Virus record (IMG/VR): IMGVR_UViG_3300043397_000026
Span: 1-23,688 of that record
Source of the DNA: a virus
Reading direction: 5' to 3' (one strand)
Length of the DNA: 23,688 bases
The stretch's first letter is position 1. Every line of letters begins with the position of its first letter. Made by a program: the position numbers and the translations under genes. Positions 2,289-23,483 of this stretch are shown here, in pieces. Under the pieces are notes generated by a model. It had not been told where the DNA came from and did no database searches. It worked only from the letters and a program-made list of their open reading frames with translations.

Positions 2289-3377
2289 ATGGCAACAAAA
2301 CCATTCGACGTAAGTAAATTTCGTAAAAGCATTACAAAAAGCATTGATGGGATCAGCATTGGATTTAACGATCCAACAGACTGGATCTCGACAAACAACT
2401 TCGCTCTTAACTACCTTATTAGCGGGGATTTTAACCGTGGTATACCGATGGGAAAGGTTACAGTGTTTGCTGGAGAGTCAGGCGCTGGTAAGTCCTACAT
2501 ATGTTCGGGTAACCTGGTCAAGAATGCACAGGAACAGGGCATTTATCCTATTCTCATTGATACTGAGAACGCACTCGACGAAGCATGGCTCCACGCCCTC
2601 GGCGTAGATACCAGCGACGACAAGCTACTAAAGCTAAACATGGCAATGATCGATGACGTTGCTAAAATGATTAGCGAGTTCGTTAAAGAATACAAAACAC
2701 TACCAGAAGATCAACGTCCAAAGGTCTTGTTTGTACTCGACTCATTGGGCATGCTGTTGACACCAACAGACGTTAACCAGTTTACTGCTGGTGATTTGAA
2801 AGGTGACTTGGGTCGTAAGCCTAAAGCACTTACAGCACTTGTTCGTAACTGTGTAAACATGTTTGGAGATCTAAACATTGGTCTAGTGGCAACTAACCAC
2901 ACATACGCATCGCAAGATATGTTTGACCCTGATGACAAGATCTCCGGTGGTCAAGGCTTTATCTATGCTAGCTCTATTGTTGTGGCTATGCGTAAGTTGA
3001 AGTTGAAGGAAGACGAAGACGGTAACAAGATTTCAGAAGTTAAAGGTATTCGTGCAGCATGTAAGATCATGAAGACACGTTATGCTAAACCTTTTGAAAG
3101 TGTTCAAGTTAAGATTCCATACGAAACAGGTATGAACCCATACTCTGGCCTAACTGATTTGATTGAAGCCAAAGAGCTGTTAAAGAAAGAAGGCAATAGT
3201 CTTGTTTACACAACAACTGAAGGCGAGATTATCAAGAAGTTCCGCAAAGCATGGGAACGTAATGATGACGGTTGTTTAGACACAGTAATGAAAGACATTA
3301 CTGCTAATCCACATATCTTCGATAAAAAGTCATCTGCTGAAGATGCACCTGAAGAAGAATCTGTAGCCGCTGAGTAA
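2289..3377 (+). CDS. uvsX: UvsX-like RecA-family recombinase
   Basis: This 362-residue RecA/Rad51-type strand-exchange ATPase would form filaments on ssDNA coated by the SSB encoded upstream, assisted by UvsY. Walker A is GESGAGKS (62-69), Walker B is VLFVLDS (146-152), and the catalytic-type glutamate lies in DTEN (91-94). An L2-like region with LVATNHTYASQDMF follows. The length is close to T4 UvsX (about 390). The acidic C-terminus (EDAPEEESVAAE) is typical. The start has AAGGA 8 nt upstream. The stop overlaps the next ATG (TAATG), implying translational coupling to the radical SAM gene. Confidence 0.93.
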   Translation: MATKPFDVSKFRKSITKSIDGISIGFNDPTDWISTNNFALNYLISGDFNRGIPMGKVTVFAGESGAGKSYICSGNLVKNAQEQGIYPILIDTENALDEAWLHALGVDTSDDKLLKLNMAMIDDVAKMISEFVKEYKTLPEDQRPKVLFVLDSLGMLLTPTDVNQFTAGDLKGDLGRKPKALTALVRNCVNMFGDLNIGLVATNHTYASQDMFDPDDKISGGQGFIYASSIVVAMRKLKLKEDEDGNKISEVKGIRAACKIMKTRYAKPFESVQVKIPYETGMNPYSGLTDLIEAKELLKKEGNSLVYTTTEGEIIKKFRKAWERNDDGCLDTVMKDITANPHIFDKKSSAEDAPEEESVAAE

Positions 3378-4315
3378 TGCTGTTAAAGGACATCAAGAGC
3401 TTACACGTTGAGTTAAGCTCAAAATGTAATGCTTGGTGTCCTAGCTGTGCTCGGAACAAAAACGGTTACGGTCTCAAAGATAACCTAGTACCACAGAATC
3501 TAGATGTAAACAAGTTAAAGGCAGCAGTTGAAGCGTTGCCAAACTTACGTGACATTCAGTTCTGTGGTCGCTACGGAGATCCTGCAATTCACCCTGCACT
3601 AAACGAAATATTAGAATGGGTAGCACCTAAAGTTCAGTACATCCAGATACACACCAATGGTAGTTTACGTAACACTGAATGGTGGACTGAGATGGGGCAA
3701 AAGTTAGCAAACGTAAATCACAAAGTGTGGTTTGGTATCGACGGGCTAGCAGGCGTGCATGAGATATACCGCCAAGGCACAGACTTTAACAAAATAATTG
3801 CAAACGCCACAGCCTTTATTCAAGCTGGTGGTCATGCAGTTTGGCAGTTCATTCCCTTTAAGCATAACGAACACCAACTTAATGCCTGCATTAAAATGGC
3901 CAAAGAATTGGGGTTTGATGATTTTGAACTAATCGAGGGTGTACGTAACGTTGAAACAGCGTACAATTATCAAACAGGCGAACAATATATGTTAGAGCCC
4001 TGGAGTAAAGACAGTACCTTTAACTTTAGAGTAACGCCTGATCGAAAACTAACAACAAAGAATTGTGCCCACCTAGAGGCGCCAGGACTATATATTACAG
4101 CGAGTGGCAAGTATACGTTGTGCTGTCATTTTGATCCGTTTGATGATAGGTTTGAGCCAATTGGCTTTGACACTATACAAGAAACTGAACAACTAGACAT
4201 CGCAAACGAAATAAATACCCAGCCAAGGCCGTTATGTGTATTTGCATGCGCCGGGCTAAAGATGGAACGAAAAATAGTTCAATTAACAAGGTTAAGGAAA
4301 TCAAATGAGTATTGA
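3377..4315 (+). CDS. Radical SAM enzyme, SPASM/twitch-like C-terminus
   Basis: A 312-residue protein with the radical SAM cluster motif C17-NAW-C21-PS-C24, preceded by a beta strand (LHVELSSKC). FCGRYGDP takes the place of the usual GGEP-type motif. The C-terminal part has further cysteines (CAHLEAPGLYITASGKYTLCCHFD, then CVFACAGL), as in SPASM/twitch enzymes that bind auxiliary clusters and act on peptides or other macromolecules. It sits inside the recombination operon, overlapping uvsX by 1 nt and the next ORF by 11 nt, so it is co-transcribed with uvsX and uvsY. The substrate cannot be told from sequence. Confidence 0.85.
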   Translation: MLLKDIKSLHVELSSKCNAWCPSCARNKNGYGLKDNLVPQNLDVNKLKAAVEALPNLRDIQFCGRYGDPAIHPALNEILEWVAPKVQYIQIHTNGSLRNTEWWTEMGQKLANVNHKVWFGIDGLAGVHEIYRQGTDFNKIIANATAFIQAGGHAVWQFIPFKHNEHQLNACIKMAKELGFDDFELIEGVRNVETAYNYQTGEQYMLEPWSKDSTFNFRVTPDRKLTTKNCAHLEAPGLYITASGKYTLCCHFDPFDDRFEPIGFDTIQETEQLDIANEINTQPRPLCVFACAGLKMERKIVQLTRLRKSNEY

Positions 4316-8481: not shown

Positions 8482-8573
8482 GGGAGTGTAGTTTAACGGT
8501 AAAACAGCGGATTTATATCCCGTGTGCAACAGATAATTGGCCAATGTCGGTTCGACCCCGGCCACTCCTACCA
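8482..8573 (+). tRNA. tRNA with long variable arm, anticodon probably TAT
   Basis: Acceptor GGGAGTG/CACTCCT, D-stem GTTT/AAAC, T-arm GTCGG-TTCGACC-CCGGC and ACCA are clear. The anticodon stem is imperfect (GCGGA/CCCGT with an A-C pair), giving loop TTTATAT and anticodon TAT (Ile, AUA). A variable region of about 22 nt (GTGCAACAGATAATTGGCC) makes it class II-like, which is abnormal for Ile. The isotype is therefore uncertain. Confidence 0.75.
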
Positions 8574-8576
8574 ATA

Positions 8577-9815
8577 ATGAACTTACTAACTTTTCAAGAC
8601 CAGCTTGGATATTACTCTGTAGGGAAATTAAAGTTCTACAGTAAACTTGAAGCACTTGAGTTAGCTAAGAAACTTGGACAAGATGTTAAGTGGCATTTCA
8701 ATGATGAAGCCTACAGCAGTTACGATTGGACGCAAGAGCCAACTGAAACACTAGAAGAACTGTACTGTGCCCGTGCATTGCAACTTAGAGAAAAGTATGA
8801 TTACTTGGTGCTTTGGTTTAGCGGCGGCGCTGACAGCACTAACGTACTAGACTCTTTTCTTAAAAACAACATTAAAATAGATGAAGTAGTTTCGTACAGT
8901 AACTACTCTGCCACTGGCAGTAAACATGATTATGTTAACGGCGAAGTGTACCAAGTAGCTATTCCACGTATTGTAGAAGCACAAAAACTGCAACCGTGGC
9001 TCAAGCATACCATTGCAGACATTGCACAATCTCAAATTGATTTGTTTAGCAGCGACGATGCAAAGTTTGACTGGACCTACAACATCAACGGATTGTGGAA
9101 TCCCAACAACCTAACTAGACAGTTCTTAAAAATGTCAGTACCAAGTTGGGCAAACATGATCAACAGTGGCAAGAAGGTTGGCTTTATATACGGTGTGTGT
9201 AAACCTCGGGTATTTGCTGTAGACAACAAATATTACTGGCGGTTTGACGATGGACAACAAGGTGCATCACGCAAAACGCAAGATGACAATCGTGAATGGG
9301 ACTTTAATGAACTGTTTTATTGGAGTCCAGATTGTGCTAAAATGTCAATCAAGCAAGGTCATGTACTTAAAAATTTCTTAAAGCATGCTAGTCTAGACAG
9401 TGACGCATTTACAGATAAATCGCATTACCCTTCGTGTTTTGTGGTCAATGAAGATATGCACACTGCATGGCAAAATCACATTAAACACGCTGGCAAAGCA
9501 AAGATTACGTTTGGTGAGTATTGTTTGTGGTATTCGTGGAGCAAAGAAACTCGTAAAGATTTAACACACGATGCATTGCACAAGTTGATTTACCCATGGT
9601 GGTATCCGGTGCCGTATCAGTTCAAACCTAACTCGTTGATCTTTACGCACAGGGACACATGGTTCTTTAACATGTCTGATACCGAAGCTGCAAGGCACAC
9701 ATGGCGCACAGGCATTGAGCACATGTGGAATGCAGCACCCGAAGAGTACAAGCAAAAAGACATTGCACACGGAATTCGGGTAATGACCAGCAAAGAATAT
9801 TCATTGGGGGCTTGA
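8577..9815 (+). CDS. PP-loop ATP pyrophosphatase-like protein (paralogue 1)
   Basis: A 412-residue protein of the adenine nucleotide alpha-hydrolase fold. The PP-loop SGGADS is at 82-87, in strand-loop context YLVLWFSGGADSTNVL. PP-loop enzymes adenylate a substrate, as in asparagine synthetase, QueC, TilS or ThiI. A second copy at 20239-21417 shares ARxLQLREKYDYL, FYWSPDC and IKQGHV blocks. The ATG at 8577 was chosen because the upstream in-frame ATG (8544) lies within the tRNA. The start is only 3 nt after the tRNA CCA and has no Shine-Dalgarno site, so tRNA processing would leave a nearly leaderless mRNA. Substrate unknown; Trp/His-rich C-terminal half. Confidence 0.85.
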   Translation: MNLLTFQDQLGYYSVGKLKFYSKLEALELAKKLGQDVKWHFNDEAYSSYDWTQEPTETLEELYCARALQLREKYDYLVLWFSGGADSTNVLDSFLKNNIKIDEVVSYSNYSATGSKHDYVNGEVYQVAIPRIVEAQKLQPWLKHTIADIAQSQIDLFSSDDAKFDWTYNINGLWNPNNLTRQFLKMSVPSWANMINSGKKVGFIYGVCKPRVFAVDNKYYWRFDDGQQGASRKTQDDNREWDFNELFYWSPDCAKMSIKQGHVLKNFLKHASLDSDAFTDKSHYPSCFVVNEDMHTAWQNHIKHAGKAKITFGEYCLWYSWSKETRKDLTHDALHKLIYPWWYPVPYQFKPNSLIFTHRDTWFFNMSDTEAARHTWRTGIEHMWNAAPEEYKQKDIAHGIRVMTSKEYSLGA

Positions 9816-16810: not shown

Positions 16811-16846
16811 CCGGAGAATGACATGAAACGTTCAGGTAAACGATAG

Positions 16847-16884
16847 TGTCAATCTAGACCCCCCGTATGGTTTAGGTTGGCACA
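16847..16884 (+). other. 15-bp hairpin before the Lys tRNAs
   Basis: GTGTCAATCTAGACC pairs with GGTTTAGGTTGGCAC over 15 positions, using some G-T pairs, with an 8-nt loop. No T-run follows, so it is not a standard terminator. It could be an RNase site or the first helix of the following RNA region. A seven-codon ORF with its own GGAG (16823-16846) ends just before it. Confidence 0.5.
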
Positions 16885-16908
16885 TTAAAGATAATTTAAT
16901 ACGACAAC

Positions 16909-16982
16909 CCTTCGCAAACATTAAGGTGATGTAACTGGCTCTTAACCAGTAAAACTTGGATCGTTCCCAAGGCGGAGGACCA
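16909..16982 (+). tRNA. tRNA-Lys (CTT)
   Basis: Acceptor CCTTCGC/GCGGAGG (one G-T), weak D-arm ACA/TGT, anticodon CTGG-CTCTTAA-CCAG, T-arm CTTGG-ATCGTTC-CCAAG, ACCA. The T-loop is the same ATCGTTC variant as tRNA-Ile(GAT). Confidence 0.88.
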
Positions 16983-16985
16983 TAT

Positions 16986-17059
16986 GGGGGTGAAGCTTTA
17001 AGGTGAAGCAACGAGCTTTTAACTCGTAGAACAGGGGTCAGTACCCTGTACCCCTACCA
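16986..17059 (+). tRNA. tRNA-Lys (TTT)
   Basis: Acceptor GGGGGTG/TACCCCT (with G-T pairs), D-arm GCT/AGC, anticodon ACGAG-CTTTTAA-CTCGT, T-arm CAGGG-GTCAGTA-CCCTG with a non-canonical loop, ACCA. It starts 3 nt after the previous tRNA. Confidence 0.88.
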
Positions 17060-17149
17060 TATGCAAGCATACTGAGTGTTCTGCAGGACACGGCATTACC
17101 AGCAATGGCGCCACTACACAAGATGTAGGGTTAGTGTGTTTACATATGG
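17057..17149 (+). ncRNA. Structured module a of the 1-kb RNA region
   Basis: Terminal helix 17057-17070 with 17136-17149 (13 of 14 pairs, some G-T); its 5' arm overlaps the CCA of tRNA-Lys(TTT). Inside are GTGTTC-TGCA-GGACAC and CTACA/TGTAG hairpins. The 3' part GGTTAGTGTGTTT plus ATATGGTA recurs in module c. The arm ATATGGT can instead pair with ACCATAT at 17259-17265, enclosing the next spacer. Confidence 0.55.
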
Positions 17150-17258
17150 TATCTAACCAGAAGGCTCAAACGTGGAGAGCCTGGTCATGGCGACCGAATG
17201 TATGTTGTTTCTAGAGCAAACTACAACAACTCTTTGACAGTTATCGGACTAAACTGTC
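17150..17258 (+). ncRNA. Structured spacer between modules a and b
   Basis: Contains ACCAG/CTGGT enclosing AGGCTC/GAGCCT, GTTGT/ACAAC, and GACAGTT/AACTGTC (7 bp, 9-nt loop). No ORF. Confidence 0.4.
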
Positions 17259-17385
17259 ACCATATCAATCCGCAAGTCTCTCGCAATGGGGACTTACGAT
17301 ATTGGGAATTAACCCATAAACGCATTGCGGCGTTGGCATCTGGTAAGGGTGCATAGCCTGAATTAACAGGGCGGATTGATATGGT
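17259..17385 (+). ncRNA. Structured module b with a pseudoknot
   Basis: A perfect 15-bp terminal helix (17259-17273 with 17371-17385). Inside, AAGTCTC/GGGACTT (17274-17280 with 17289-17295) holds an 8-nt loop whose CGCAATG (17282-17288) is exactly complementary to CATTGCG (17323-17329), giving a 7-bp pseudoknot. Two small hairpins share the loop AATTAA (TGGG/CCCA and CCTG/CAGG). This is the best-supported RNA fold in the region. Confidence 0.7.
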
Positions 17386-17387
17386 AA

Positions 17388-17521
17388 CAATGAAGACGAC
17401 ATGGAAAGATAGTGCAAAGTCATACAATTGGTCCGGTACGTAACGGAGTAAACTGATTGTGTGGCGAGCGTAGCACAACCCGCATCGCACGGGTAGTTAG
17501 TGGGTTCGATTCCCATCATTG
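17388..17521 (+). ncRNA. tRNA-like domain b
   Basis: CAATGA (17388-17393) pairs with TCATTG (17516-17521) around a partial cloverleaf: D-arm-like GTGT/GCAC, anticodon-like ACCCG-CATCGCA-CGGGT (17478-17494), a 5-nt variable loop, and T-arm GTGGG-TTCGATT-CCCAT (17500-17516). The anticodon-like loop lacks U33, about 65 extra nt precede the D-arm, and there is no CCA. Not a normal tRNA. Confidence 0.5.
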
Positions 17522-17547
17522 AAACTGTAACCTCGTCGGCATGTGTG

Positions 17548-17607
17548 TCCACCGTGCATTAACCGACATAAAATAAAGCCAGGACGAATGCTGTCGTTAA
17601 CGGTGGA
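17548..17607 (+). ncRNA. 8-bp stem-loop between tRNA-like domain b and module c
   Basis: TCCACCGT (17548-17555) pairs perfectly with ACGGTGGA (17600-17607), with CGACA/TGTCG inside. Confidence 0.45.
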
Positions 17608-17611
17608 GCCT

Positions 17612-17681
17612 ATATAGAAACACATTTTCAAATCCGTACTGGTTGCAAACAGTACCAATGATGGTTAGTGTGTTTCTATAT
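17612..17681 (+). ncRNA. Structured module c
   Basis: A perfect 12-bp terminal helix (17612-17623 with 17670-17681) and an inner GTACTG-GTTGCAAA-CAGTAC hairpin. The 3' half (GGTTAGTGTGTTT plus TATATGGTA) is a near copy of the 3' half of module a. Confidence 0.6.
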
Positions 17682-17834
17682 GGTAGCGATGAAATTATCG
17701 TAGCAGGAATTGGAATACGCGACGGGCTAGGGTGGACTCTTAAACCGCCTCCTCAAGAAATTGATAAACCCGTTGAAATTACACGATTGAAAAATTGTGA
17801 CTGTGGGTTCAAGTCCCACCGAACGCTATCATAT
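17678..17834 (+). ncRNA. tRNA-like domain c
   Basis: A perfect 11-pair helix (17678-17688 with 17824-17834, one G-T) encloses a CGAT/ATCG arm, an anticodon-like arm with loop CTCTTAA (as in tRNA-Lys CTT) and a canonical T-arm GTGGG-TTCAAGT-CCCAC (17803-17819). Four nt separate the T-arm from the closing helix and no CCA follows. It sits directly between modules c and d, whose arms it shares. Confidence 0.5.
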
Positions 17835-17945
17835 AGAAGTATTCTTAGCATAAGACAAAGCGGGAGAAGAGACCTTAGTGGATGCATACGCAACGGTTTC
17901 AGAGCTTGACTCCTCCTAGGCCTGCATTTGAGAGTGCTTCTATAT
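17831..17945 (+). ncRNA. Structured module d
   Basis: A 13-pair terminal helix (17831-17843 with 17933-17945, two G-T). The right arm again reads TTCTATATGGTA. The inner 90 nt hold GC-rich segments with weaker pairing. Confidence 0.5.
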
Positions 17946-18046
17946 GGTATAGTGTAATGCGAGCTGCACGGGATCGCCACGTAAGTCTTCACTAAGCGGT
18001 GGAACAAGGTTCAGGAGTGGTACAAACCCACAGCCATTTAAAATTT
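17946..18046 (+). other. Spacer before tRNA-Phe
   Basis: 101 nt with no ORF. Short stems can be drawn, but nothing as clear as in modules a-d. It may be the tail of the RNA region. Confidence 0.3.
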
Positions 18047-18122
18047 GCCTCTATAGCTCAGTTGGTAGAGCAGTGGATTGAAAATCCATGTGTCACTGGT
18101 TCAAATCCGGTTAGAGGCACCA
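18047..18122 (+). tRNA. tRNA-Phe (GAA)
   Basis: Acceptor GCCTCTA/TAGAGGC, D-arm GCTC/GAGC, anticodon GTGGA-TTGAAAA-TCCAT, T-loop TTCAAAT, ACCA. Confidence 0.95.
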
Positions 18123-19375: not shown

Positions 19376-20251
19376 ATGATTACACATCCAATTATTTGTG
19401 CTCCGATGAATAGAGTGTCGGATTTAACGCTGGCGCTTGCAGTTCATAAAGCAAATTGTATTCCAAGTTTTGTAATTTACAACTATCAAGACAGCAAATG
19501 GGACGAAGATTTTTTAAAGTTTAAAACCGAGTTAGCGGAGTACGTTGGTATTACTGGCTCGCACCACTTTGTTGTTGCATTGAAATCAGAATTATTACTG
19601 GCACAACCCTTGGTAGTTGATACAGTAATAAAGGCACGCCCAGCTTACTTAGAGATATTCGACATAATTGATACCGAAAATGTTAAGCTAATGTCAATGC
19701 TGAAACTGTTTAGAAAAGTCGGCATTAAGATTGTATATAAGATGCTTGGGGTCAGAAGTGTTGGCGCCCTTAGCGAATACATTGACGGAATTGTAATCAA
19801 AGGGCCAGATGCCGCTGCAAGAGTTGGGTCTCTACGTGTAGAGCTAGTAGACAAGATCAAACAAGTTAGGTCAATGTACCCCCATTTCTTTATTGTTGCA
19901 AGTGGCGGAATTACTTCATCTGCTGAAATTAAAGAGTGCTTAGATGCTGGCGCCGATACTGTAAGTTTGGGGACTATATTTGCATTGTCAACTGAATCGT
20001 CTATGTCGCTGGAAACTAAAACGCAGTTACTTGGTATGAGTTTTTCGGATACTAAGAATATTGGATCCGAACATCAAAATGCAATAGTCTTTACAGATGA
20101 AAAAGATATTGATGGAAATCATACTGCTGGTTTAGAGTCCGGATTAAAAAATCCATCAAAAGGACATGTGTTCATTGGCAAGGCCATTGACACCATTGTA
20201 GAGATTAAAACAGTTGGGCAGATAGTATCGGAATTAACATGCAATCTATGA
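19376..20251 (+). CDS. Nitronate monooxygenase-like FMN TIM-barrel protein
   Basis: A 291-residue alpha/beta-barrel protein. The N-terminal strand HPIICAPMNRVSD, the late barrel signature FFIVASGGITSSAEIKECLDAGADTVSLGTIFALSTES and the end motif KGHVFIGKAIDTI match the 2-nitropropane dioxygenase/nitronate monooxygenase family, in which GG and GT loops bind FMN phosphate. Members oxidise nitronates or act on other small substrates, so the true substrate is open. It is shorter than bacterial NMOs (about 320-350), missing some middle segments. It overlaps the PP-loop gene downstream by 13 nt, so the two are co-translated. The start lacks a ribosome site but has a TTAAATAC box 5 nt upstream. Confidence 0.75.
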   Translation: MITHPIICAPMNRVSDLTLALAVHKANCIPSFVIYNYQDSKWDEDFLKFKTELAEYVGITGSHHFVVALKSELLLAQPLVVDTVIKARPAYLEIFDIIDTENVKLMSMLKLFRKVGIKIVYKMLGVRSVGALSEYIDGIVIKGPDAAARVGSLRVELVDKIKQVRSMYPHFFIVASGGITSSAEIKECLDAGADTVSLGTIFALSTESSMSLETKTQLLGMSFSDTKNIGSEHQNAIVFTDEKDIDGNHTAGLESGLKNPSKGHVFIGKAIDTIVEIKTVGQIVSELTCNL

Positions 20252-21417
20252 CAATTTCTCAACCACGCATTGGGTACTATATATGCGACGGTATAAATTT
20301 TGAATCCAAGATACGTGCATTACTGCACAGTAAGTCAACTGGTAAACCAGTTGAGTGGATTTTTAATGACAAGGTATTCCGGAGTTTTAATTGGCTAGTT
20401 GAGCCAGAATTGGATCTCGAATCGTTGTACGACAAACGTGCAAGACAACTCAGAGAAAAGTACGATTATCTAATTTTAAGTTACAGTGGTGGTGCAGACA
20501 GTCATAATGCATTAATGTCTTTTGTTAGGCAAGGCCTTCATATAGATGAAATATTGGTTAACACCATGGAAACCGCTAGCTCTAAGTTTGTGGATCTTGA
20601 CCCTAATAACAAGTCACCGGAGAACACACCGGCAGAGTATCAGCTTCAAACAGTTCCACGATTAAAAGAAATTGCGTGGCAAATACCCAAGACAAAAATT
20701 ACAGTAACCGATTTAACAGATCATATCTTTTCCTCGTTTGAAGACGCAAAAGATGCTAGTTGGGTTCTTACTAAAAAAGAACGCATCAACCCTGTGGGAA
20801 CGACTCGGTATAATTATTTGTACTTTAATGAAGTACGAAAGAATTTTGATCGCAATAAAAAAATTGCATTGGTGATGGGTATCGAAAAACCCAAGGTGCA
20901 AATTGTAGATGGCAATTTGTTTATGACTTTCTTAGATAGGGTAGTCAATACTGCAAGCGTTGCAGACCATTTTTGGGAATACACAAACAGCTCAATTGAA
21001 TTTTTTTATTGGAGTCCAGATTGTGTGCCATTGATGATTAAGCAAGGGCATGTTATTAAGAGATGGCTAGAAGCCAACCCTGCATTGCAAGTAGATTGGT
21101 TAAAGGAAAATATTACGCCAGAAAAAGCCAGACGATATCAAGAAAAGTTGCTTAAGGGCTTATTATATTCTACATGGAATCAAGATTGGTTCCAAACTGA
21201 AAAGGCTGTGCGAGATTGGGACAGCGAATTTGATAATTGGTTTATTGATGGGTATAAAGAAACCAAAGCATTCCAAATTTGGAAAGAAGGTGTAGACTTT
21301 TTACGCACAGAGCTAGATGGATTCCACAACATACAAAAAGGTGAGCCGAACGGTTTAGTGTTCTTTTCGAAACACTACAATTTAGGGCCTGTAAAAAACT
21401 TTACCAAACCTCTATAA
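20239..21417 (+). CDS. PP-loop ATP pyrophosphatase-like protein (paralogue 2)
   Basis: A 392-residue protein with PP-loop SGGADS (83-88) in the context YLILSYSGGADSHNALM. It shares with the protein at 8577-9815 the N-terminal YY-x-F-x-SK start, ARQLREKYDYL, IGFIYG/LVMGIEKP, FYWSPDC, IKQGHV and an SKxYxLG end, so the two arose by duplication. The family adenylates substrates for amidation, thiolation or ligation. The start overlaps the FMN-barrel gene by 13 nt, suggesting a joint pathway. Substrate unknown. Confidence 0.85.
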   Translation: MQSMTISQPRIGYYICDGINFESKIRALLHSKSTGKPVEWIFNDKVFRSFNWLVEPELDLESLYDKRARQLREKYDYLILSYSGGADSHNALMSFVRQGLHIDEILVNTMETASSKFVDLDPNNKSPENTPAEYQLQTVPRLKEIAWQIPKTKITVTDLTDHIFSSFEDAKDASWVLTKKERINPVGTTRYNYLYFNEVRKNFDRNKKIALVMGIEKPKVQIVDGNLFMTFLDRVVNTASVADHFWEYTNSSIEFFYWSPDCVPLMIKQGHVIKRWLEANPALQVDWLKENITPEKARRYQEKLLKGLLYSTWNQDWFQTEKAVRDWDSEFDNWFIDGYKETKAFQIWKEGVDFLRTELDGFHNIQKGEPNGLVFFSKHYNLGPVKNFTKPL

Positions 21418-21745: not shown

Positions 21746-22324
21746 ATGTTATTAACATACAAAACCCCGGTCAGAATTGATCACAATTGGAAAAATACCA
21801 TTGCAGTATTAGAGCATGGTATTGACCTAGTTACTACAAACAGTGATAAAATCACAAAGCAATACAAGCACAGTGATTACGGATATCACTATGAACTGGG
21901 CTCCGCTGGCACAATTAGCCACGTTACTAACGGTAGCAGTTATTGGTATAACATGACAGGCCCATTGATTGAAAAGTCAATGCCCTTTCTTCCGCTAATG
22001 TTAGAGAGTTTAAGTGAGCTAGAGCCTACTATAGTGTCCGTAAACAAACTAGTGGGCAATGGTGCAGAGCACAAAGACCAACCTGGTCAGAACACTGGGT
22101 TTAACTATTTCATTAACACCACAGACAGTCTTACCTATGTAAAGGACAAAGACTACACAGAGGTGTATCCAAGTAATGCCAACGAAGGTTGGCTACTGGA
22201 CATTCAAAAGATGCATGGCATCAACAATACAGGATCTCGAGTTTGGTTTAACTTGCGATTTGCTAAACCTTTTGCGGAATGCAAAGAATGGTTTGAACAA
22301 CAACTGGTAATGGTATATGGATAA
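21746..22324 (+). CDS. 2OG-Fe(II) oxygenase-like (aspartyl hydroxylase-type) protein
   Basis: A 192-residue double-stranded beta-helix protein. The iron-binding triad is H109-x-D111 (GAEHKDQPG) and H157 (QKMHGINNTG), with R165 in SRVWFNLRF as the 2-oxoglutarate anchor. This order and spacing are those of aspartyl/asparaginyl beta-hydroxylase and similar phage oxygenases. The substrate could be a protein, nucleobase or small molecule. The next gene overlaps by 8 nt. The start follows the 21-bp helix directly and lacks a Shine-Dalgarno sequence. Confidence 0.8.
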   Translation: MLLTYKTPVRIDHNWKNTIAVLEHGIDLVTTNSDKITKQYKHSDYGYHYELGSAGTISHVTNGSSYWYNMTGPLIEKSMPFLPLMLESLSELEPTIVSVNKLVGNGAEHKDQPGQNTGFNYFINTTDSLTYVKDKDYTEVYPSNANEGWLLDIQKMHGINNTGSRVWFNLRFAKPFAECKEWFEQQLVMVYG

Positions 22325-23483
22325 GATTGTAAGCATTGAGCCGGCAATTGATCCGTCTAATAGGCCAATTCTGTTGTTGGACTGGGAGTTAACTCTACGC
22401 TGTAATCTTGATTGCAGCTATTGTGGACCACAGTGGCATGATAACCATAGCTCACACCCTCCGCTAGATGAATGCTTAAACACAATCGACTTTATGTTTG
22501 ATTATGTTCATCGTTACATGATGCTTAAGCCTAAGTGGCAACGTATTGTGGTTCTAAATCTATACGGCGGCGAAGCTATCTATCATCCTAACATTGTAGA
22601 GATTCTGCAAGAGCTTAGAAAGCGCCACGAAGCATTCAAGGATGACTGGACATTAACAGTTACAGTAACCACTAACGGTGTAGCAGGAAAGAACTTGTGG
22701 ACTGAGGTTACCAAGCACGTAGATGAGTTTACAGTTAGTTTTCATAGCGAAGCACTGCCTAAGCAGCGCCAGCAAGTGCTAGACAACATCCTCTACAATA
22801 AGGCCATCAATAGGAAGCAAAAAGTAGTGTTTGTGATGCATAACGATCCTCAAATGTGGGATATAAGCATGCAAGCTGTGGAGTTTTGCAAACAGCATGA
22901 TATCAAGCATGTAGTTAAAGCCAACGACACGCCTACACCTAAGTGGCAATACAATAAAGATCAGTTCAAGTTCTTTGCAGACTATTACGAAAGCAAGACA
23001 CCCGAAAAGAGTCGCAACAAGATCATCATGTTAAAAGAAGTAACAGATGATACAGTGGGCATGGGCAAGATTGGTCGTAGCTGTTGTGGTGGCAGAGGAT
23101 TATGCACTAACCAAGACTTAAAACATCCAATGGGCTTTGTGCCACATGCGGATTTTAAAGATTGGTATTGCAGTGTAAACTGGTACTTCTTATACATTAG
23201 GCAGCACAATGGTGATGTTTATGTAAACAAAGATTGTCAAATGAACTTTGAAGGTGGCATAGGACCAATTGGGAATCTAAGCAACACCAAAAAAATTCTA
23301 GACGATCAACAAAAACTGCTTGACGGGAATACAGTTCCTGTTATACAATGCAAGCAAGTTAGATGCATATGCGGCTACTGTGCTCCAAAAGCAGAGAAGT
23401 TCGAAGATTTCACTAAAATCATGCAAAAACATGTTGACAGTAAAATCAACTTCGCATATAATACTAGCTTAAACGATAAGTAA
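22317..23483 (+). CDS. Radical SAM/SPASM-like enzyme
   Basis: A 388-residue enzyme. The [4Fe-4S] motif is C29-NLD-C33-SY-C36, followed by VVLNLYGGEAIYHP (the GGE SAM-binding motif) and VTVTTNG. The C-terminal half has many cysteines (SCCGGRGLC, NKDCQMNF, CKQVRCICGYC) consistent with SPASM-type auxiliary clusters that act on peptides or proteins. It overlaps the oxygenase gene by 8 nt, so the two probably act on the same target. The second radical SAM protein of the window (3377-4315) is related in architecture only. Confidence 0.88.
   Translation: MDKIVSIEPAIDPSNRPILLLDWELTLRCNLDCSYCGPQWHDNHSSHPPLDECLNTIDFMFDYVHRYMMLKPKWQRIVVLNLYGGEAIYHPNIVEILQELRKRHEAFKDDWTLTVTVTTNGVAGKNLWTEVTKHVDEFTVSFHSEALPKQRQQVLDNILYNKAINRKQKVVFVMHNDPQMWDISMQAVEFCKQHDIKHVVKANDTPTPKWQYNKDQFKFFADYYESKTPEKSRNKIIMLKEVTDDTVGMGKIGRSCCGGRGLCTNQDLKHPMGFVPHADFKDWYCSVNWYFLYIRQHNGDVYVNKDCQMNFEGGIGPIGNLSNTKKILDDQQKLLDGNTVPVIQCKQVRCICGYCAPKAEKFEDFTKIMQKHVDSKINFAYNTSLNDK

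Follow-up and report, generated by a model that had tools for sequence, protein, structure and literature searches.

Small structured RNAs enclosed by a CCA-anchored helix in the tRNA array of an uncultured jumbo phage

The tRNA cluster of the virus record IMGVR_UViG_3300043397_000026 raises the question of what occupies the space between its second lysine tRNA and its tRNA-Phe, as neither ARAGORN nor Rfam calls a tRNA between 17060 and 18046. At gathering score, only tRNAs were found by Rfam in the window (the whole stretch of DNA that was analyzed, 23,688 nt), and a permissive scan of 16820–18060 up to E 10 added only chance matches. Protein coding of the module region was considered and rejected from the ORF list, in which the reading frames reach at most 95 aa and mostly lie on the opposite strand or overlap structure. 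An earlier note had described four modules with a common right arm, alternating with tRNA-like domains, and had taken them for the duplication of one RNA unit derived from or built around tRNA. The region belongs to a long array of small structured RNAs within the tRNA cluster of a jumbo phage, and its parts are summarized in Table 1.

Table 1. Units of the array and inverted repeats of its four closing helices.
Feature	Position	Strand	Basis or remark
tRNA-Lys(CUU), CCA encoded	16909–16982	+	ARAGORN
tRNA-Lys(UUU)	16986–17059	+	Rfam tRNA, 44.8 bits at 16986–17056; sequence
Module Xa: left arm 17057–17074, three-hairpin insert, right arm 17132–17149	17057–17149	+	inverted repeat, arm covariation, predicted fold
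Unit Y1, GG...CCA, between modules a and b	17148–17262	+	relatives
Module Xb: CCATATCAATCCGC/GCGGATTGATATGG	17260–17384	+	inverted repeat 95%, predicted fold
Unit Y2, tRNA-like RNA	17383–17525	+	10 relatives; 9-sequence alignment
Unit Y2b, structured segment 3' of Y2	17531–17609	+	84–99% relatives in L114, L198, L146, L366 and L367
Module Xc: left arm CTATATAGAAACACATTT, right arm TAGTGTGTTTCTATATGG	17610–17683	+	inverted repeat 100% of 13
Unit Y3, tRNA-Leu-like	17682–17831	+	sequence reading; 99% relative in L114 behind another module
Module Xd: TCATATAGAAGTATTCTT ... GAGAGTGCTTCTATATGG	17829–17947	+	8-sequence alignment
Unit Y4, structured segment 5' of tRNA-Phe	17946–18046	+	78–93% relatives in L114, L367 and L218
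tRNA-Phe, closes this array stretch	18047–18122	+	ARAGORN and Rfam
Helix a	17055–17073/17133–17151		84% of 19 paired
Helix b	17255–17273/17371–17389		95% of 19 paired
Helix c	17612–17624/17669–17681		13 of 13 paired
Helix d	17827–17845/17931–17949		84% of 19 paired, G.T counted as mismatch

The right arm ATATGGTA recurs at 17144–17151, 17379–17386, 17678–17685 and 17942–17949, and every copy pairs with its own left arm. The closing helix common to modules a–d (17057–17947) has the form CCATATNN-AAACACATTA ... TAGTGTGTTTNN-ATATGG, and the module boundaries in Table 1 are the corrected ones. Modules a and c do share their right sides, the direct repeat covering 21 of 23 nt, slightly below the 23 of 25 nt claimed before. 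The T-arms ascribed to the tRNA-like domains are present as well (GTGGGTTCGATTCCCAT at 17500–17516, between modules b and c, and GTGGGTTCAAGTCCCAC at 17803–17819, between c and d), and so is an alternative pairing of neighboring modules, with 6 bp between 17144–17149 and 17260–17265. The predicted fold of 17050–17955 includes all four modules and has a z-score of −6.9, based on 20 dinucleotide shuffles only, none of which was as stable.

The segments between the modules are further structured units, which start with GG and end with CCA or a variant of it. In units Y1 to Y3, ARAGORN and Rfam recognized no cloverleaf with a decoding anticodon loop, as a functional tRNA would have; T-arms and an anticodon-like arm are present, but with non-standard loops. 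Y2 combines a closing stem of 9–10 bp, a long covarying arm, a 5+7+5 anticodon-like arm (loop YATCGCA), a five-base variable segment and a T-arm; in an alignment of nine sequences, two-sided changes occur at 17 of its 38 predicted pairs. By its look Y2 is tRNA-derived, though ARAGORN and Rfam call no tRNA there. In Y3, an acceptor-like stem (GGTAGCG/CGCTATC) and the second T-arm accompany an enlarged anticodon-arm region. As for the modules, the inner arm of Xb departs from the consensus, yet is complementary, and no relative of its insert was found; Xd forms one long helix with a branched insert and shows four two-sided changes among eight aligned sequences.

Upstream of tRNA-Lys(CUU), positions 16823–16883 carry a ribosome-binding site and a 7-codon ORF (MKRSGKR), behind which lies a hairpin (GTGTCAATCTAGACC/GGTTTAGGTTGGCAC). 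Versions of this K/R-rich leader ORF precede the same tRNA-Lys(CUU) in roughly 50 contigs, with a hairpin that varies yet stays complementary, and the element looks like a leader-peptide control of the tRNA array. Elsewhere in the window, two paralogue-like proteins of ~400 aa (8544–9815 and 20239–21417) both contain an SGGADS motif and are PP-loop ATPase-like, and radical SAM proteins are encoded at 3377–4315 and, counted from the Cys motif, at 22317–23483. These proteins possibly constitute a modification pathway.

The helix is widespread. An exact search of IMG/VR with GTTAGTGTGTTTNNATATGGTA returned 38 stretches, the shorter right-arm pattern TAGTGTGTTTNNATATGGTA at least 119 and a left-arm pattern at least 120, while the right-arm pattern written backwards had no match in IMG/VR. 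In the GTDB genomes (257 billion bases), the right-arm pattern matched 10 times, with 7–8 matches expected by chance according to our estimate; in viral contigs, the arm pattern exceeds chance. The window's UvsX is nearest to those of jumbo phages such as Vibrio 2.275.O, CBB, XbC2, Atu_ph07 and Phosso. However, the six nearest cultured jumbo phages are devoid of the module family (2 of their 111 CCA tRNAs score 16, neither being family-like), and a nucleotide search of INPHARED with the whole region found no cultured-phage relative except for the tRNA-Phe. The module family is therefore known here from uncultured phages only. Its modules are common to two phage lineages, with UvsX proteins 77–91% identical to that of the window in one and only 25% in the other, and Xd has 97% relatives in the second lineage (L092).

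The module set used for comparison comprised 308 distinct same-strand canonical modules from 168 loci. Their inserts have a median length of 50 nt, and their X helix measures 15–20 bp, starts on CCA and ends in UGG(U). Helix positions 7 and 8 had been left free in the search pattern, and position 7 nevertheless pairs in 304 of the 308 modules versus 146 expected if both sides were independent; A-U, U-A and G-C are common there and C-G is present. In 127 of 308 modules, an A.C mismatch is retained at position 8. Among 30 diverse arms, 12 of 18 pairs show two-sided changes, and 95% of the cells pair compared with 31–59% when the arms are slid against each other. Position 16 has a U.G wobble on the tRNA strand in 245 same-strand modules and reversed in none; in the other modules C-G or U-A stands there with few exceptions, and C.A does not occur. 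It is thus on the tRNA strand that the structure is maintained. Covariation of the secondary structure together with a fixed strand, as expected in general of a structured noncoding RNA of phages, is found in this family. The discriminator base and the base after UGG do not covary.

With regard to the tRNAs, the claim that the unit was built around tRNA is borne out. In 169 of the 282 modules with an upstream same-strand tRNA, the helix opens exactly with the CCA of this tRNA as its first three bases, as in the window, where the CCA of tRNA-Lys(UUU) at 17057–17059 is the start of module a. Several between-module units also possess a T-arm, a 5+7+5 anticodon-like arm and an acceptor-like stem. 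All tRNAs of the loci that end in CCA were examined for a downstream partner of the 18 bases that begin with CCA: 243 of 2669 CCA tRNAs pair at 16 or more of the 18 positions, while shuffled downstream sequence gives 10. Many of these CCA-anchored helices are altogether unlike the AAACACA sequence and are still bounded by CCA...UGG.

The duplication of a single unit, on the other hand, did not hold, as only the closing arm is common to the modules. By sequence, the 354 distinct inserts make up about 215 groups without relation to each other, 154 of them single, and are mostly 30–100 nt long. Several of these payload families contain T-arms, but most payload groups are not tRNA-like. An Rfam scan of 13 other loci gave no insert match among the 150 of 269 matches listed. 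Neither the shared F1 payload (no convincing match) nor the P1 core, a 215-nt payload, Y2 and the leader had relatives among cultured phages in nucleotide searches of INPHARED.

Larger RNAs occur in the same setting. P1 is a conserved RNA of about 125 nt, the core pattern of which is present in 37 viral contigs (L098:5938–6064, L284:2866–2988 and others). Its closing stem is wholly different between contigs but complementary throughout, while the core is kept. Where P1 stands behind a tRNA, the stem starts at the CCA or next to it; in other positions it starts elsewhere. Further RNA families of 190–270 nt with a tRNA-anchored closing helix were seen at L221:5842, L270:7401 and L205:8741; at L193:2147 and L201:3026; and at L165:8767, L169:2253 and L253:9227. 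A GOLLD RNA (L205:311–775) and a permuted tmRNA (L176:1841–2110) also occur in tRNA arrays of such phages.

We lean, with somewhat more than even confidence, towards a standard tRNA-anchored helix for processing or protection that presents exchangeable small RNAs. The X helix starts on a CCA that belongs to a tRNA or tRNA-like RNA upstream, and it encloses one of many payload RNAs. Most likely it would serve as a common handle that pairs the CCA end within the precursor and thereby protects the 3' end, and it would set the site of cleavage between CCA and the GG of the next RNA. Host tRNA-processing enzymes could then free mature tRNAs together with tRNA-like RNAs and capped hairpin RNAs. The payloads would be small RNAs for use during infection, exchanged between phages as cassettes via recombination at the shared arms. 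The sequences themselves show the helix with its covariation, strand and CCA register, the diversity of the payloads, their shuffling and their spread over phage lineages; transcription, cleavage, protection and a function of the payloads are what we infer. A phage RNase III was considered as the enzyme acting on the helix and dropped, since no PF00636 match was found in 14 large module-bearing records. No tyrosine integrase (PF00589) was found in the same 14 records either, which are possibly incomplete, and host enzymes together with the phage's own UvsX recombination are therefore the likely agents. Some observations count against the processing handle. The A.C mismatch at position 8 is not needed by a plain processing duplex, and some helices, as well as P1 without a preceding tRNA, start off CCA. 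Furthermore, protection alone leaves more than 200 payloads on one helix sequence unexplained, which recombination could explain.

Recombination leads to the rival reading that the arms are mainly DNA exchange sites like the attC hairpins of integrons, at which tRNA and RNA cassettes recombine, with RNA structure being secondary. The shuffled order of the units speaks for exchange. While the window reads Lys(CUU), Lys(UUU), Xa, Y1, Xb, Y2, Y2b, Xc, Y3, Xd, Y4, Phe, locus L114 reads Lys(CUU), Lys(UUU), other units, Y2, Y2b, Xc, Y1, X, Y, XF1, Y3, Xd, Y4, Phe, and L366 and L367 read Y2, Y2b, Xd, Y4, Phe. Behind Xc (99% relative in L114), the window has Y3 but L114 has Y1; Y1, with relatives in L114 (96%) and L103 (85%) behind different modules, stands behind Xa, Xc or XF1, and Xa itself has a 97% relative in L083. 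The earlier note had staked its reading on the modules recurring as a set in relatives, and Y2, Xd and Y4 do stand in one array in L114, L366 and L367, the last two units being followed by tRNA-Phe in all three. Between phages, the pattern is one of cassette shuffling and not of local duplication. The junctions lie at the arms, 97%-identical modules are present in phages of different lineage, and the phages carry UvsX, UvsY and SSB; UvsX-dependent recombination and amplification were reported in a phage tRNA array (PMC13096335). As in integron attC arrays, the cassettes share one orientation, stand in shuffled order and are separated by imperfect inverted repeats with a variable middle. In contrast to integrons, the modules come without an integrase in the 14 records, the attC core GTTRRRY/RYYYAAC is not at their outer ends (CCATAT/ATATGG), and the register of the helix is set by the tRNA CCA, which only an RNA function accounts for. 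Moreover, complementarity is kept within modules while sequences differ between them, and arm-to-arm exchange alone would break this pairing. We thus consider it unlikely that the arms are mainly DNA exchange sites.

A different role for the payloads is suggested by the tRNAs they follow. The helix stands behind 83 of 116 Lys(UUU) and 51 of 135 Glu(UUC) tRNAs, less often behind Gln(UUG) and Leu(UAG), and behind 0 of 99–110 Trp, Ser(GCU) or Asp tRNAs, counts which come from loci chosen by the helix, the helix-independent set holding only 35 CCA tRNAs. Lys(UUU), Glu(UUC) and Gln(UUG) form the s2U34-modified tRNA set, and these helix-bearing types include known anticodon-nuclease targets: PrrC is an anticodon nuclease that targets Lys tRNA, and RloC one that targets Glu tRNA. 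Phage tRNAs have been shown to oppose anticodon nucleases (PMC10264068, PMC11555353). Payloads and tRNA-like Y units could accordingly be decoys or substitutes against host nucleases attacking tRNA-Lys and tRNA-Glu, and the T-arms in several payload families would fit. However, the selection of loci through the helix and a single inherited linkage at the Lys locus could also explain the preference, and an anticodon-like loop is missing from most payloads. The decoy role, which we judge to be quite improbable, is compatible with the processing helix, and the position of the helix behind nuclease targets makes an anti-defense role of the payloads a lead only.

The modules might also be transposable elements of the MITE kind, which have terminal inverted repeats and would have entered CCATATGG sites between tRNAs. 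tRNA-Lys(CUU) is linked by TAT to the next tRNA (CCA-TAT-GG), the same insert-free CCATATGG junction is found behind this tRNA in 35 loci, and sites with an insert read CCATAT...ATATGG. However, the orientation to the tRNAs is fixed (245:0) and not random, the inserts are unrelated, and the arms vary with compensation. No gene of transposase size lies between the arms of any of 654 pairs, where open stretches reach 77 aa at most, and a comparison with empty sites yielded no clear case, which renders insertion elements very improbable. An origin of the units as tRNA genes that are split, permuted or interrupted by introns and are spliced to normal tRNAs is hardly credible despite the tRNA-like arms and stems of Y2 and Y3 and the permuted tmRNA of one related locus, as the upstream tRNAs are already complete, the anticodon-like loops are variable in size and lack U33, and most payload groups are not tRNA-like.

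The tRNA-anchored processing or protection helix can be compared with other known RNAs. GOLLD (RF02032) and ROOL are likewise structured phage or prophage RNAs near tRNA islands, and the GOLLD linker sometimes contains tRNAs (PMC12286853). However, they are single large RNAs, whereas the arrays of the window type contain many small unrelated RNAs with nothing in common but a tRNA-anchored closing helix. No match to the GOLLD and ROOL covariance models was found in the window (gathering score) or in 16820–18060 (up to E 10). The tRNA cluster of phage T4 contains the small stable RNAs C and D and is similar in this respect, but these are two RNAs for which we know of no shared CCA-anchored helix or cassette exchange. 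The UGGN of the T-box antiterminator and the GGU of RNase P contact the NCCA of tRNA, and in the same way UGGU pairs with the ACCA end of the tRNA here; in contrast, the phage helix pairs in cis and over ~15 more bp downstream of CCA. A literature search, with subscription journals largely outside its reach, yielded no report describing helix-clamped phage RNA cassettes, and we rate the architecture of the helix-cassette system as new.

At its broadest, the finding may be read, tentatively and with more doubt than confidence, as uncultured large phages keeping a library of exchangeable small RNAs on a standard helix clamped to tRNA 3' ends. Such a library would be an RNA counterpart of the integron, in which the helix would act as a universal maturation adaptor and the payloads would counter host defenses or tune the host. 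With hundreds of small structured RNAs absent from Rfam, phage tRNA clusters contain a large RNA world that is still unannotated, and one anchoring rule links these RNAs and makes them easy to find. The helix sequence offers a simple handle for cataloguing, expressing and testing the payloads. Why phages carry tRNA arrays becomes newly testable as well, since the arrays may double as a processing platform for other RNAs.
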